Origin: Collinsella aerofaciens
GTDB lineage: Bacteria > Actinomycetota > Coriobacteriia > Coriobacteriales > Coriobacteriaceae
Direction of reading: 5' to 3'
DNA length: 64,000 bases
Assembly (NCBI RefSeq): GCF_028209625.1
Contig: NZ_JAQLDU010000002.1
Coordinates: 62,001-126,000 of the forward strand
The notes under the pieces were generated by a model, which had not been told where the DNA came from, searched no databases, and was given only the letters and a program-made list of their open reading frames with translations. The position numbers and the translations under genes were made by a program. Below are positions 7,183 to 53,031 of this stretch, in pieces. Each line of letters starts with the position of its first letter. The stretch's first letter is position 1.

Positions 7183-7250
7183 ATGAGCGTGGATAATCTC
7201 CCACTTTTGCCCAAAGCACAGCCCAAAAACGGGAGATTATCCACGCTCAT
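7183..7250. repeat. Perfect 20-bp intergenic palindrome
   Basis: Arms 7183-7202 and 7231-7250 are exact inverted repeats (ATGAGCGTGGATAATCTCCC and its complement), with a 28-nt loop. A third partial copy of ATGAGCGTGGAT stands in direct orientation at 7154-7165. The gap between tgt and the SDR gene (7042-7502) has no gene and consists largely of this and the next two elements. Confidence 0.8.
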
Positions 7251-7257
7251 TTTGCAG

Positions 7258-7315
7258 GTAGTCATTGGGGACGTTCTTAAACGACTAGTCAAACAAGAAC
7301 GTCCCCAACGACTAC
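7258..7315. repeat. Palindrome with GGGGACGTTCTT arms
   Basis: Arms 7258-7278 and 7295-7315 pair over 21 positions with one mismatch. The GGGGACGTTC core recurs as direct copies at 10507-10553. It begins 8 nt after the preceding palindrome and lies 25 nt before the structured element at 7341-7500. Confidence 0.75.
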
Positions 7316-7340: not shown

Positions 7341-7500
7341 GTTCTGGCAATGTCAGCGAGCGGTCACCAGAGCGAACAAATTGGCATGAAAAGAGGGCGG
7401 CATAGACCTTCTGGTCATGCCGCCCTCTTTGAATGACAAGTTGTCGCTCTGGTGACCGCGCAGCGTCGGCCCGTTACGGCGTTTGGTAAAACGCCGCAAC
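7341..7500 (-). repeat. Structured ~155-nt repeat element, copy A (3' of SDR gene)
   Basis: Outer stem 7360-7375 with 7444-7459 (16 bp, GCGGTCACCAGAGCGA and its complement). Inside it is a 14-bp hairpin, 7390-7403 with 7417-7430, capped by GACC-TTCT-GGTC. A separate end hairpin spans 7473-7484/7489-7500 with one mismatch. In the direction of the SDR gene the end hairpin comes first, 2 nt after the stop codon. Related copies at 10568-10729 and 50898-51041 keep the pairing with changed bases. Function unknown. Confidence 0.8.
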
Positions 7501-7502
7501 TC

Positions 7503-8303
7503 CTACGGACGCTGGCCCATGCCACCCTCGAGGGTGACGGTCTCGCCGTTCATATACTTAAAGTCGGGACCGCAGAGCTGAACGACGACGCGGCCGATTT
7601 CCTTCTCGACGTCGCCGTAGTGACCCGCCGGCGGCATGTGGACGTTGGCCTTGAACGCCTCGGGATAGGCATCCTGGAAGTTCTCGAGCGCGGCGGTCCA
7701 AGCAAGCGGGCAAACGATATTGACGTTGATGCCGTCCTTGCCCCACTCGTTGGCGGCAACGCGAGTCAGACCACGGATGCCCTCCTTGGCGGCGGCATAG
7801 CTGCACTGACCATAGTTGCCAAACAGGCCGGCGCCCGAAGCAAAGTTGACCACGGAGCCCTTGGTCTCCTTCAGGTGCGGGTAGGCCTTCTGCATGTACA
7901 GGTAGGTGGCATACAGACCGGAGTAAATGGCGAGGTTGAACTGGTCCATGGTGTGATCGGCGATCGTCACGCCCGAAGCGCTGGCCTGAGCATTGTTGAC
8001 GACGGCGTCGATGCGGCCGAACTCCTCAATGGCCTTGTCGATGACGTTCTGGACGACGGCCTCGTTGTCCTGACCAGCCGAGACATCGGCCTGAACAGGC
8101 AGAACCTTGACGCCGTACTCGGCCTCGAGGGATTCCTTGGCAGCCTCGAGCTTGGCAACGTTGCGGCCGGTAATGACGAGGTTTGCGCCCTCCTTGGCAA
8201 AAGCGATATCGATACCGTAGCCGATGGAGCCAGCGGAGCCGTCCTTGAGCGTGGCCTTGCCGCCGCCGGTGACGATCACGGTCTTACCAGTGAAAAGTCC
8301 CAT
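7503..8303 (-). CDS. SDR-family NAD(P)-dependent oxidoreductase
   Basis: 266-aa short-chain dehydrogenase. The dinucleotide site is unusual: KTVIVTGGGKATLKDGSAGSIGYGI has about eight extra residues inside the usual TGxxxGIG loop. Further landmarks are NLVITGRN, VVNNAQAS (the NNAG position reads NNAQ), VVNFASGAGLFGNYGQCSYAAAKEG with the catalytic Ser and a YxxxK-like YAAAK motif, and a C-terminal GGMGQRP. ATG 8303 follows AAAGGAC. The substrate cannot be told; gut Coriobacteria carry SDRs acting on bile acids and steroids, but nothing here assigns that role. Confidence 0.85.
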   Translation of the reverse strand: MGLFTGKTVIVTGGGKATLKDGSAGSIGYGIDIAFAKEGANLVITGRNVAKLEAAKESLEAEYGVKVLPVQADVSAGQDNEAVVQNVIDKAIEEFGRIDAVVNNAQASASGVTIADHTMDQFNLAIYSGLYATYLYMQKAYPHLKETKGSVVNFASGAGLFGNYGQCSYAAAKEGIRGLTRVAANEWGKDGINVNIVCPLAWTAALENFQDAYPEAFKANVHMPPAGHYGDVEKEIGRVVVQLCGPDFKYMNGETVTLEGGMGQRP

Positions 8304-8591
8304 ATAAAGTCCTTTCAAATCGCGACGGGCCTGCCCGTCGACTGCGCGCATCCAACTTCACGCGCCAAAAGCTGAAATGCAACTTTAGCGGGTTCAAGTG
8401 AAAAATAAAGCCCATGGCAGGCGAACGGCGCAACGTCTTTCGGCGAAGGGAATGTCAAGTACAAACTGGATAAAGTGGCCGAGTTTTTGCTATCGACGCG
8501 AGCCATCGAACACGTTTTGAAACTTTGCTGCAGCGCGCGGGATGTCGGCGCGAGACTTTATCATAGGGTGACAAACAACGATGAGGAGCAC

Positions 8592-10388: not shown

Positions 10389-10453
10389 GTTGCGGTGAGA
10401 TAGTTCCTGTTTAGTCCTCAATAAGGCCAATTCAAGAACTATCTCACCGCAAC
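10389..10453. repeat. Palindromic TTGCGGTG-family element, copy 3
   Basis: Perfect 18-bp arms, 10389-10406 and 10436-10453 (GTTGCGGTGAGATAGTTC and complement), 27 nt after the coiled-coil gene stop. Where copy 2 has GGAAT/ATTCC, this copy has GAGAT/ATCTC, so paired positions change together. Confidence 0.8.
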
Positions 10454-10506
10454 CTATTTAGATCGACGCAAGGCAACCTATCCCTCTTGCACCAATCTCT
10501 TGACAT

Positions 10507-10567: not shown

Positions 10568-10729
10568 CGATGCCTTGGCAAAGTCAGCGAAAACCCGCCA
10601 GAGCGAGCAAGGTGCCTTGAAACGAGGCGGCATTGACCTTCTGGTCATGCCGCCGAAGTTGAAAGGCAGATTGCCGCTCTGGCGGGTTTGCAGCGTCGAG
10701 CCGTTACGCGGTTCGTAGAACCGCGTAAC
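10568..10729 (-). repeat. Structured ~155-nt repeat element, copy B (3' of queA)
   Basis: Outer stem 10591-10605 with 10675-10689 (AAACCCGCCAGAGCG and exact complement). Next helices are GCAA/TTGC (10607-10610 with 10671-10674) and GCCTT/AAGGC (10614-10618 with 10663-10667). An inner hairpin spans 10626-10654, with the same GACC-TTCT-GGTC cap as copy A. A perfect 12-bp end hairpin is 10703-10714/10718-10729, and its last base is part of the queA stop codon (10729-10731). Function unknown. Confidence 0.8.
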
Positions 10730-11946
10730 TAACAAATGAGCATGGCGTCGCCAAAGCTGAAGAAGCGGTAGCGCTCCTCGATGGCGGCGGCGTAGGCATC
10801 CATGATCTGGTCGCGGGTGGCAAGCGCGCTTACGAGCATCATGAGCGTGGAGCGCGGCACGTGGAAGTTCGTGATCAGCGCGTCGACCACGTGATAGGTC
10901 GAGCCGGGCATGAGGTAAAGCTGCGTCGTGGCGTTCTCGCGCGCCACGATGTCGCCGCGGCCGAGCGTGTCGGCACCGTCCTCGCGGCCTTCAAAATAGC
11001 GCGCTGTCACAGCCGGATCGGACACCGGCGCGTCCGCGTCAAACGCACTCTCGAGCGAGCGCACCGCGGTGGTGCCGACGGCGATCACACGATGACCCTC
11101 GGCCTTCGCCTTATGCACGGCGTCGACAACCTCCTGCGACACGTGGTAGCGCTCGGTGTGCATGACGTGCTGCGTAGGGTCGTCCTCCTCCACCAAGCGG
11201 AAGGTATCGATGCCCACCTCGAGCTCGACGGCGGCAAACTTCGCGCCCTTGGCCTCGATAGCGGCCATGAGCTCGGGAGTAAAGTGCAGACCCGCCGTAG
11301 GAGCGGCAGCCGAGTGCTCCTCCTTCATGGCGTAGACGGTCTGGTACTTCTCGGGATCGCCCTCGTAATCGGTAATGTAGGGCGGCAGCGGCACGTGGCC
11401 GGCGGCGTGAATGGCCTCGTCGAGCGTGCGCGGCTCGCCGGCGGCATTGCAACCGGCTGGCTCGAAGCGCACCAAACGGCCGCCGCGGCTATCGGTGACA
11501 AAGACGACGACCTCGGCCGTCAGCACCACGGGAGCCCCCTCGGGCGCATGGGCGCCACCGGCGCGATACTCAATCTGAGCACCGGGCTTCAGGCGCTTGC
11601 CCGGCTTGACCAGGCACTCCCAAACGTGGCCCAGCGGGTCAACATCCTCACGGCGCTTGAGCAGCAGCGTCTCGACCACGCCACCCGAGCCGGCTTTGCG
11701 ACCGATCAGGCGGGCCGGCATCACACGCGTCTTGTTGATGACGAGCACATCGCCCGGCTCGATATAGTCGATGATGTCGCGGAAGATGCGGTGCTCAACG
11801 GTACCGCCGTGCTCCAGCGGCTTCCCCGCCTGGGAGCCTTTGCGATCCACCACCAGCAGGCGGCAGGAGTCGCGCGGCTCGGCAGGAGCCTGGGCAATCA
11901 GTTCCTCAGGAAGGTTGTAGTCAAAATCATCGGTACGCATAGACAC
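10729..11946 (-). CDS. queA: S-adenosylmethionine:tRNA ribosyltransferase-isomerase
   Basis: 405-aa QueA, which transfers and isomerises the ribosyl part of SAM onto preQ1 in tRNA to give epoxyqueuosine. Signatures: DDFDYNLPEELIAQAPAEPRDSCRLLVV, FRDIIDYIEPGDVLVINKTRVMPARL, EEHSAAAPTAGLHFTPEL, VELEVGIDTFRLVEEDDP and NFHVPRSTLMMLVSAL. GGAG lies 8 nt before GTG 11946; ATG 11940 is an alternative start. queH starts 0.6 kb upstream on the same strand, with a short gap that allows cotranscription. Confidence 0.96.
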   Translation of the reverse strand: MSMRTDDFDYNLPEELIAQAPAEPRDSCRLLVVDRKGSQAGKPLEHGGTVEHRIFRDIIDYIEPGDVLVINKTRVMPARLIGRKAGSGGVVETLLLKRREDVDPLGHVWECLVKPGKRLKPGAQIEYRAGGAHAPEGAPVVLTAEVVVFVTDSRGGRLVRFEPAGCNAAGEPRTLDEAIHAAGHVPLPPYITDYEGDPEKYQTVYAMKEEHSAAAPTAGLHFTPELMAAIEAKGAKFAAVELEVGIDTFRLVEEDDPTQHVMHTERYHVSQEVVDAVHKAKAEGHRVIAVGTTAVRSLESAFDADAPVSDPAVTARYFEGREDGADTLGRGDIVARENATTQLYLMPGSTYHVVDALITNFHVPRSTLMMLVSALATRDQIMDAYAAAIEERYRFFSFGDAMLIC

Positions 11947-41984: not shown

Positions 41985-42010
41985 AAAGGGTCGGTTGCAG
42001 CCGACCCTTT
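41985..42010. terminator. Hairpin terminator, probably bidirectional
   Basis: AAAGGGTCGG-ttgcag-CCGACCCTTT. T-runs flank it on the minus strand (TTTTCT) and at the stem end on the plus strand. From here to 42240 no gene is seen, and the DNA is AT-richer than its surroundings. Confidence 0.65.
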
Positions 42011-42240
42011 AAGACGATAGCACCTGCGTTGCCCGCGCTTCCAAAGTTGACCGACTGAGGAGCGGGTTCCGCGGCACATCCTGATTTTACCCAGTGGCAA
42101 GGCTCTTTTACAGCCGTTCCACCGTTTATTTACATCTGCCAATCAAGACGAGACTACTACGCACCTTTATTACACACGATATTTTCAGCCTGGTATAACC
42201 AAGTTCAATAATAGAATGCAAATCCAACCACCGTGTCTGA

Positions 42241-50766: not shown

Positions 50767-50897
50767 GCCAACCTCCCCTCGCCACAAGCGCAGCGCAAGA
50801 CAAGGCCCCGCGCACTATTCACGAACGTCTGTTCTAGAATAACACAACGCTAGCCCTATAAGTCAGCCGAGATCGAATTGTAGGTTGAGCATACGCA

Positions 50898-51041
50898 AGC
50901 GAGCGCCCGCCAGAGCGAGCAAGGTGCCTTGAAAGAGGAGGGCATTGACCTGGTGGTCATGCCCGACGATTGAAAGGCAGATTGCCGCTCTGGCGGGCGC
51001 GCAGCGTCGACTCGTTACGCGGTTTGGCAAAACCGCGTAAC
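50898..51041 (-). repeat. Structured ~145-nt repeat element, copy C (3' of NAD-synthetase-like gene)
   Basis: Outer stem 50903-50917 with 50986-51000 (GCGCCCGCCAGAGCG and exact complement). Helices GCAA/TTGC and GCCTT/AAGGC match copy B. The inner hairpin (50940-50964, GGGCATTGACC with GGTCATGCCC) is shorter than in copies A and B. The end hairpin 51014-51025/51030-51041 is a perfect 12 bp and comes 4 nt after the stop of the minus-strand gene at 51046. The rest of 50767-51045 has no gene. Confidence 0.8.
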
Positions 51042-51045
51042 CTTT

Positions 51046-53031
51046 TTAGTTCTGGCTAAAGAACGGGAACTGCCTCGGATCCACCGGCGGATGCGGCATC
51101 GGCGTGCCCTGGGGTCCACCCTGCGGGCCACCCTGGCCGCCCATCATCTTATCGATGGCGTCCTGAACCTCGCCCTCGAACTTTTTCATGCCCTCGTGCA
51201 AACGACGCTGACCGTCCTCAGAGCGCAGCTCCTCCATCTGCTCGGGCGAAATACCCAGCAGCTCACCCAAAATGCCCATCATCTCACCGCGCATACGGTC
51301 ACTCGTATCGTCGTCGGCAAAGCGACGCACCTCGGCGCGCGCCAGCGAATCAACCGTCATGCGCTCCTTGCCGTTGAGCCCCAGATCGGACCACGCAAGC
51401 ATGTACGGCCAGGCGCGCTCGGCAAACGAACGGGCAGAGACGATCGGCACCGTCGGCAGCATGCGGCGGGCGGCCTCGCCCTGACGCACGAGCATCAGCA
51501 GCAGCGAGCAGGCCTCAGGCTTGCCAGCGGCCATCGGGATGTCGTCGAAAGATCGATTGCGGTCCACGTGCGACTCGAGCGCACCATCGACCTCACCCGG
51601 CTCGAGCCCGCCGAGCAGCTGTGCCGCGCGGTCGAGCATATCGACCGGACCGTCGAGCGTCGAGAGCGCCTGCGCCAGCACTCGCTCCATACAATCTTCC
51701 ACCGCGTTGAGCGTCACGAGCTCTTGGGGCACCACGGCAGACGTGCGGTTGCGCACGCGCGCCACAAACTCAAGCGTCGACAGGTACACATCGCCAAAGG
51801 GCGCGTAATCACCCTGGTAGCCGCCGCAAAGCGCCGGCGCCGCCAGCGCGTACTCGGTTTTGGACAGCGGACTCAACGCCATCGCACCCAGCTCGAGCGC
51901 CGTGTCCTCCAGCATGAGGCCCAGCGTGCGAGAGCGCAGGCGCTCGGCGTCGCCCGCCGACACATCGCGGTCGAGCACGCGCGCGGCATCCGGCGCATCG
52001 CGCTCAACCGTGCGAATATGCAGGCGCTCGGCAATGGCGCGAACGGCGGCACAGCGAGCAGCCTCGGCCTCCTCCTGCGCCGGCGTAAAGATGCGGTTGC
52101 GCCCCAGCACCAGGCCAATCACGTTACGTGGGCCCAGAGCGTCGACGGCCAGCGCCGCCAGCAGGGACGACGGCAAGTCGCCCTCGAGTGCCACCACGGC
52201 GCGCGACGCACCGTGGGCCCGGGCGTTGTCGCGCACGGCGAGCACCAGCGCCTGCCACAGCCACTCCTCGGAACGGAACTCGGGCAGTTCGTGATCTTCC
52301 AGGGCATCGAGCATCACGCCGCGCTGAATCTCCTGAACCAGCAGGCTCTCCTCAAAACACGGCGCTTGGGCCACCACGCGACCGCAGTCGTCGAGCACAA
52401 ACGAACCGCCGGTATACACCGACTCGTCATAGGCACCGACCGGCGCCATACAGGCAAACCACACGCTGCGCTTGGATGCGATCTTGCGGTAGGCGCCGCT
52501 GCGAACGGCGGCAATGGCGGCAGTCTCGCGGTCGGTCATGTCAAACGCATTGAATTGGAAATACGCAATGAGGTCAACACCGGTCGGCAACATCTCGAGT
52601 TCGCGGTCCAAGTCAAAAATCACGGCGATGCGCACGCCGTCCACGTCGAACACCGGCGGCGCCCAACGCGTGTCGTTGTTCTCGCCACGCTGCAGGGCAA
52701 TGCTCGAACGCGCCGGCACCACATGACCGTCCTTGAGCATCATGTAGTCGAGCAGCGGCTGACCCTCAAACGAAACCGCCGCGGGCACGATGCAGATCAT
52801 GTCAAGCTCCTGGATGCGCTCGGCGATACCAGTCAAGCCGGCAAGCATGTCGTGCTCAAAGTCGGCAGCGCCCACCAGGCCACCGGGCATGGCGCCCATA
52901 AAGAGCGGAGCCGGAACGCACAGCACGCGCGCCCCGCGCTCGTGGGCCAGACGAGCCTGGTCCTCGATGCGGCCGCAAATGCCCTCAATATCACCCAGGC
53001 GCATATCGATCTGTGCAAGCGCGAGCTTCAT
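51046..53031 (-). CDS. Glutamine-dependent NAD synthetase-like protein with altered active sites
   Basis: 661 aa with the NadE two-domain layout: an N-terminal nitrilase-like domain (MKLALAQIDMRLGDIEGICG onward) and a C-terminal NAD-synthetase domain ending in SKTEYALAAPALCGGYQGDYAPFGDVYLSTLEF. Catalytic positions look lost. The nitrilase Glu region reads CVPAPLFMG (39-46), and the Cys of the usual CED motif is Phe139 (IFDLD). The ATP loop SGGxDS is EGDLPSS (283-289). An extra Gly/Pro-rich tail (GGQGGPQGGPQGTPMPHPP) ends the protein. It may be a pseudoenzyme or a specialised paralogue; a canonical NadE elsewhere would be expected. ATG 53031 follows AAAGGG. Confidence 0.75.
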   Translation of the reverse strand: MKLALAQIDMRLGDIEGICGRIEDQARLAHERGARVLCVPAPLFMGAMPGGLVGAADFEHDMLAGLTGIAERIQELDMICIVPAAVSFEGQPLLDYMMLKDGHVVPARSSIALQRGENNDTRWAPPVFDVDGVRIAVIFDLDRELEMLPTGVDLIAYFQFNAFDMTDRETAAIAAVRSGAYRKIASKRSVWFACMAPVGAYDESVYTGGSFVLDDCGRVVAQAPCFEESLLVQEIQRGVMLDALEDHELPEFRSEEWLWQALVLAVRDNARAHGASRAVVALEGDLPSSLLAALAVDALGPRNVIGLVLGRNRIFTPAQEEAEAARCAAVRAIAERLHIRTVERDAPDAARVLDRDVSAGDAERLRSRTLGLMLEDTALELGAMALSPLSKTEYALAAPALCGGYQGDYAPFGDVYLSTLEFVARVRNRTSAVVPQELVTLNAVEDCMERVLAQALSTLDGPVDMLDRAAQLLGGLEPGEVDGALESHVDRNRSFDDIPMAAGKPEACSLLLMLVRQGEAARRMLPTVPIVSARSFAERAWPYMLAWSDLGLNGKERMTVDSLARAEVRRFADDDTSDRMRGEMMGILGELLGISPEQMEELRSEDGQRRLHEGMKKFEGEVQDAIDKMMGGQGGPQGGPQGTPMPHPPVDPRQFPFFSQN

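Follow-up and report, generated by a model that had tools for sequence, protein, structure and literature searches.

A structured interspersed repeat adjoining stop codons in Collinsella genomes

The window analysed here, a 64,000-nucleotide stretch of Collinsella aerofaciens DNA (assembly GCF_028209625.1, contig NZ_JAQLDU010000002.1, positions 62,001 to 126,000), contains three copies of a structured element, at 7341-7500, 10568-10729 and 50898-51041. A first-pass annotation made from the letters had placed the copies at these positions and quoted arms that pair with each other, and on both points it was accurate. All three lie on the − strand, where their first hairpin adjoins the stop codon of a − strand gene: an SDR oxidoreductase (7503-8351) for copy 1, queA (10729-11946) for copy 2 and an NAD-synthase-like gene (51046-53031) for copy 3. 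On the gene strand, the stop codon is followed, after a few bases, by hairpin 1, and then come the linker, stem-loop 2 and TCGCTG. Hairpin 1 is 27-28 nt long with a GTTACGCGG-like arm, and the linker after it ends in GACGCTGC. Stem-loop 2, of 98-100 nt, has an outer stem of ~15 bp and ends in a GACC/GGTC tip; its pairing is interrupted by internal loops and a bulge of one base.

All features of the copies are on the − strand. In copy 1, hairpin 1 (7473-7500, 28 nt, GTTGCGGCG..CGCCGTAAC in sense) lies 2 nt from the stop of the 7503-8351 frame; it is followed by the linker (7460-7472, GGGCCGACGCTGC in sense), stem-loop 2 (7360-7459, 100 nt, with the tip GACC-AGAA-GGTC) and a right edge (7352-7359, TCGCTGAC in sense), the same edge at which IS110 insertions are found in other genomes. 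Hairpin 1 of copy 2 (10703-10729, 27 nt) has as its first base the last base of the queA TAG stop (10729-10731), and the linker (10690-10702), stem-loop 2 (10591-10689, 99 nt) and right edge (10583-10590, TCGCTGAC) follow. Copy 3 begins 4 nt from a TAA stop (51046-51048) with hairpin 1 (51014-51041, 28 nt), continuing through the linker (51001-51013) and stem-loop 2 (50903-51000, 98 nt) to a right edge at 50895-50902 (TCGCTTGC in sense). Each copy folds far better on the − strand than its dinucleotide shuffles (z of −10.5, −10.2 and −10.2; 0 of 200 shuffles in each case). Variation is greatest in the outer arms, and conservation is highest in the linker, right edge and internal-loop motifs; GACGCT in the linker, together with the C after the next base, is invariant in 22 of 22 aligned rows (three window copies and 19 from the related genome G001). 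The perfectly paired outer stem described in the first-pass annotation holds for the three window copies and does not extend to every copy in other genomes.

The window copies belong to a large interspersed family. In G001, the closest related genome searched, one window copy used as a BLAST query gave 27 of 61 rows at E ≤ 1e-5. A covariance model was built from the three window and 19 G001 copies (alignment A2), and it found a match at E ≤ 0.01 in 33 of 58 related genomes, namely 31 of 35 within the genus and 2 of 23 outside it; the first-pass annotation had staked its claim on such further copies. Among the 31 matching genus genomes some have one weak match only and 15 have at least 30 rows, these being counts among at most 52 scored candidates per genome, which may include opposite-strand echoes. 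Counted once per place at E ≤ 1e-12, genomes G008, G024 and G015 carry 29, 28 and 31 copies, a few of which are without hairpin 1. From these three genomes, 121 matches at E ≤ 1e-6 were reduced to one per place, leaving out opposite-strand echoes and weak or partial rows, which yielded a set of 88 copies (87 distinct). Outside the genus, G052, from another family of the order, has ten long, strongly diverged copies and one partial copy. A plasmid collection contained one matching record (NZ_OY725717.1, Collinsella aerofaciens), whose element coordinates are the same as those of contig C6 of G008, and a phage search gave no match to the element. A pattern scan of one genome per species returned a single place, a chance match within a Bacteroidales MAG coding sequence; near genomes may be missing from the genomes scanned, which makes the scan a poor guide to distribution.

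We conclude that this is a real repeat family, which we did not find described in the literature searched. The first-pass annotation did not recognise it as a named family, and the window indeed gives no Rfam match to the element at gathering score; the best match for the copy 3 region at E ≤ 5 reaches 16.5 bits against a gathering score of 100. The accessible part of a human-microbiome RNA survey gives a name to one Collinsella motif, which lies upstream of a ribosomal gene, and refers to a further 250 candidates that are palindromic, among which this repeat could be (PMC8040213). No paper on the repeat was found in a search that lay mostly outside subscription journals and supplementary tables, so an earlier report is possible. 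The sole Rfam match in the window is a full-length Collinsella-1 RNA (RF01700) of 156 bits at 41988-42154 on the − strand; it is also structured and occurs in the same genus and window, but its place and sequence are separate from those of the repeat.

Base pairing is preserved across the family by changes on both sides of the stems, and the covariation that the first-pass annotation had asked for beyond three copies is present when compared with shuffles. In alignment A2, 33 of 54 pairs have two-sided change. The corresponding number is 42 of 54 in the 88-copy set, where 94.6% of cells are paired compared with 76.0% in shuffles and 33-40% for slid structures, and where the covariation score is 0.436 versus 0.134 (0 of 500 shuffles for each measure). 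A distant set of 20 distinct rows behaves likewise, with 89.2% of cells paired versus 65.8%, two-sided change in 41 of 54 pairs and covariation of 0.532 versus 0.151. The alignments of both sets were fitted to the model, which biases them toward structure; for this reason, and because the copies are related, the shuffle counts are not probabilities. From the effect size and the slid controls, chance pairing is unlikely. Further standard pair types number 91 for the 88 copies, which is unexceptional against 86.9 in shuffles (reached in 57 of 500). Much of the two-sided change coincides with the replacement of one whole subfamily by another at a given gene end and is thus not independent compensatory mutation. 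Selection on structure had been proposed from the three copies, with action in RNA or single-stranded DNA. This is supported in part, in that pairing is retained through two-sided change in the 88 copies and the 20 diverged rows; action on RNA is not borne out.

A second feature of the repeat is its position. Under a mechanical rule that accepts any open frame of 100 codons or more, a frame ends between −60 and +1 of hairpin 1 in 69 of the 88 copies and at −8 to +1 in 67; at least one of these 67 (site L153) is false. Of 19 typed copies in the distant set, 18 lie at −10 to +1 from a stop (19 places from 23 rows, with three duplicates and L054 left out). PGAP coordinates of the Collinsella aerofaciens record place the element against queA, the SDR gene, an M20 peptidase gene, lysS and tyrS. 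The downstream frames show no fixed orientation: a rough rule puts 41 in the same direction and 47 in the opposite one. The stop codons of the 69 upstream frames are TAG in 49, TAA in 18 and TGA in 2, compared with 64 TAG, 59 TGA and 39 TAA among 162 other frames of at least 120 codons at the same loci. TGA is scarce too among the window's own 33 long ORFs (15 TAG, 12 TAA, 6 TGA); thus, avoidance of TGA at element-bearing gene ends depends on the background and is only suggestive. Targeting of the gene-opposite strand as the lagging strand was considered and is unsupported by the direction of the host genes, 46 of 59 of which are co-directional with replication in a count without gene background that assumes circular contigs and a terminus opposite dnaA.

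At site L153 the upstream frame belongs to a glutamine-amidotransferase gene (PF00117 in relatives). At the loci L288, L290 and L295, in G008, G010 and G029, this frame crosses hairpin 1 and the linker and stops inside stem-loop 2, so that the protein acquires a new tail encoded by the repeat. By eye, the same gene end of a more distant species (L309) also seems to carry a similarly designed stem-loop, in the opposite orientation.

Tight spacing behind the stop codon and uniform orientation in most copies, with structure intact while the letters differ, are what one would expect of a structured 3′ untranslated RNA, which would serve as a terminator without a U-tract, an exonuclease barrier or a ribosome-release brake and would be kept behind the stop by selection. 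The repeat may possibly affect the upstream mRNA end or translation termination, and its retention at many sites in different species would also be consistent with a useful function at the ends of mRNAs. A parallel is offered by E. coli, in which REPs that lie no more than 15 nt from a stop are described in the accessible part of one report as lowering translation (PMC12306157). Nevertheless, we regard this reading as doubtful. A U-tract of four or more T follows hairpin 1 in 1 of 88 copies and stem-loop 2 in 7 of 87, too rarely for intrinsic terminators. A terminator-like match in the sense direction at 10611-10594 comes from a short alternative stem. Many close species do without the element at four gene ends, and at L153 it lies inside a reading frame.

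The folding energies of the two strands also weigh against an mRNA element. Distinct stem-loops in which the linker pattern was found (20, 69 and 20 in sets A2, A3 and A4) were compared. By RNA energies, the better fold of stem-loop 2 belongs to the gene-opposite strand in 19 of 20, 67 of 69 and 19 of 20 cases, with mean advantages of 5.7, 9.0 and 12.5 kcal/mol, respectively, which leaves the mRNA-sense strand as the worse folder in all three sets. DNA energies give the same bias (19 of 20, 65 of 69 and 18 of 20). As a control, perfect hairpins made from single A3 arms gave −0.9 kcal/mol in the reverse direction with RNA energies; the loops and mismatches, and not base composition, therefore make the difference. 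These predicted energies favour folded DNA or an antisense RNA and disfavour the idea that stem-loop 2 is selected for its fold in an mRNA tail. Counts of G-U against A-C cells on the gene strand are mixed and do not settle the strand question: in 87 distinct copies, G-U exceeds A-C in hairpin 1 (20:4) and the inner stem (39:24), as would suit a 3′ untranslated RNA, but not in the outer stem (28:75), and the ratio is 12:24 when cells are counted once per subfamily.

An antisense RNA would be a structured small RNA made from the opposite strand, ending at hairpin 1 and pairing with or shielding the neighbouring mRNA end. The better RNA fold of that strand is in its favour, as is copy 3, in which CTTTTT follows the + strand reading of hairpin 1 and gives a terminator-like match. 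This match is absent in copies 1 and 2, however, and the strand bias is the same with DNA energies. A search for sigma-70-like promoters, the type covered, found no match inside the element in the three window regions, and the places inspected showed no conserved promoter. Moreover, the sequence beyond TCGCTG, which would be upstream on that strand, falls into several unrelated classes. We consider an antisense RNA highly unlikely. As regards the alternative left in the first-pass annotation, RNA or single-stranded DNA, the second half fits somewhat better than the first in view of the strand energies, the rare U-tracts and the want of a conserved promoter.

Comparison of orthologous gene ends reveals that the subfamily at one site often differs between species. 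The 88 copies represent 41 sites, of which 18 are filled in all three genomes, 11 in two and 12 in one. Of 65 cross-genome pairs sharing a site, 33 agree in subfamily and 32 do not, and identity of stem-loop 2 is bimodal (27 pairs above 95%, 6 at 80-95% and 32 below 80%); pairs from different sites have a mean identity of 67% (n = 2514). At the queA site, the element stands at the stop codon in 18 of the 18 close species read, with at least three stem-loop types, and is not visible within 230 nt in 11 of the 11 more distant species read, one further locus being unread. Empty alleles are found at four sites. The element is present in 7 of 17 alleles at L137, 4 of 19 at L188 (with two remnants), 3 of 18 at L153 and 5 of 19 at L131 (with two truncated copies and one allele carrying another repeat), in counts that leave out the more distant species and two unreadable contigs. 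When occupancy was placed on an 18-species tree built from five gene fragments, which may themselves recombine, its scatter was similar to that of shuffled labels; one remnant and one truncated copy were counted as carriers. Filling at L188 and L153 is accompanied by the loss of some target bases. No target-site duplication was visible by eye at the four empty/filled sites, the junctions of which are aged and contain small deletions. The empty L153 alleles of G004, G011, G013 and G019 already contain GGTTCCGC, the start of hairpin 1, which is a target, a footprint of loss or chance.

Of three chimeric copies, two (L068 and L077) are joined at the tip of stem-loop 2 and one (L329) within the hairpin 1 loop; they suggest that exchange may begin with breakage at hairpin tips. 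In three cases (L139-L186, L125-L147 and L133-L147) a downstream flank matches a different site by sequence that is not an IS110 flank, and rearrangement at the copies is one possibility. The chimeric joins, like the differing subfamilies at one site, are also what passive palindromes would produce, in which two-sided changes result only from arm-to-arm templated correction and ectopic recombination, with no function or recogniser. Correction between arms should erase the internal loops and the bulge, but these stay in place in most subfamilies with different arms, and it would not yield anchoring at stop codons; such a passive origin is quite improbable.

Taken together, the element is probably a non-autonomous, interspersed DNA repeat of the REP/BIME-like kind, reshuffled by recombination and situated mostly against stop codons. 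In the mechanism that we propose, a folded single DNA strand, rather than the mRNA tail, would be recognised or processed, and hairpin cleavage or single-strand recombination would drive exchange between dispersed copies. The site just behind a stop codon may be the least harmful place for insertion and hence be kept. A more specific form of recombination can be imagined by analogy with integron attC sites, which are strand-specific folded DNA with bulges and lie directly behind a stop codon. The repeat would then be a strand-specific folded-DNA recombination site at which a putative recombinase swaps ~100-nt stem-loop cassettes among dozens of gene ends, with anchoring at the stops, and gene tails and chromosome order would be reshuffled by a dedicated system. 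The likeness is one of analogy only, as no gene cassettes or arrays were noted around the repeat, and we think this form unlikely.

The resemblance to REPs is closer. According to the accessible parts of two reports, REP, BIME and REPIN sequences are interspersed intergenic palindromes near the 3′ ends of genes; GTAG-type REPs adjoin these ends and often supply the TAG stop of flanking ORFs (PMC3733652), and REPs are targets of insertion sequences (PMC1525189). The Collinsella repeat shares the intergenic location and, in places, the overlap with a TAG stop, and hairpin 1, at 27-28 nt and ~30 copies per genome, corresponds to the 20-40 nt palindrome of a REP in many copies, though joined to a larger stem-loop. 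There are distinguishable differences. The first is that the Collinsella repeat is a longer composite of a 28-nt hairpin, a linker and a ~98-nt stem-loop, with variable outer arms. The second is the tag, which in REPs is GTAG or CGTC at the hairpin foot: GTAG occurs within −8 to +1 of hairpin 1 in only 14 of 88 copies (TAG in 56). The third is that REPs with a cognate Y1 transposase (TnpA-REP/RAYT) have the repeat flanking its gene. Y1 transposase genes (PF01797) are found in 37 of the 58 genomes, with 80 matches among those listed; at none of the 32 loci examined does the element clearly flank the gene, and the best model match there has E 0.05 and 15.5 bits. The Collinsella repeat is thus REP-like rather than a demonstrated REP, the GTAG tag being confined to a minority of copies and no Y1 gene being clearly flanked by the element at the 32 of 80 loci examined. 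Small mobile sequences of the MITE type (RU repeats) are likewise dispersed, 100-200 bp long and known with empty alleles, but the Collinsella repeat has no visible target-site duplication at the four sites and differs in its strand-biased fold and its anchoring at stop codons.

On this reading, the repeat would constitute a REP-like family of Coriobacteriales with no transposase identified alongside it, and its stop-codon rule is sharper than in the accessible parts of the REP reports compared. Filled, empty and differing alleles at orthologous gene ends of alignable species make it testable how REP-like repeats come to adjoin stops, and which of the two forms, folded DNA strand or mRNA tail, is the one that matters.

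The repeat also provides, at its right edge, a target site for insertion sequences of the IS110 family, and it is a possible typing marker for a common gut genus. At six places in five genomes, selected for a TCGCT junction already seen there, an insertion sequence starts immediately after TCGCT. In one of the six the transposase was classified, and it belongs to the IS110 family (PF02371, E 6.6e-20; PF01548, E 2e-10). The right junction, read in two places, resumes at CTGTCC or CTGACA, and PGAP annotates an IS110 family transposase beside the tyrS copy. Insertion sequences of the IS110 family can use RNA-guided targeting; by analogy, the TCGCT edge is a candidate for such targeting of a dispersed repeat. 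Loci with an IS110-family element at this edge are L277, L278, L279, L280, L281, L282 and L349.

Other repeats accompany the element. GGGGAC-type repeats adjoin copies 1 and 2 (window positions 7265, 7301, 10514 and 10541) and follow many copies elsewhere. Among 12 Y1 loci read in detail, two (L207 and L208) have GGGGAC repeats at both ends and none has the element; the GGGGAC repeats may be the true REPs of Collinsella. A Y1 group of 345-348 aa was considered as a partner, having by eye tracked high copy number, and was rejected, since the members fetched are without the element at their ends. Two further kinds of intergenic palindrome occur nearby: a long one, GAGCGTGGATAATCTCCC-like with its inverse, at window positions 7230-7249 and at L012, L042 and L334, and another, GTTGCGGTGGAATAGTTCC-like with its inverse, in several species, at about 10400-10455 of the window and at L063, L072 and L218.
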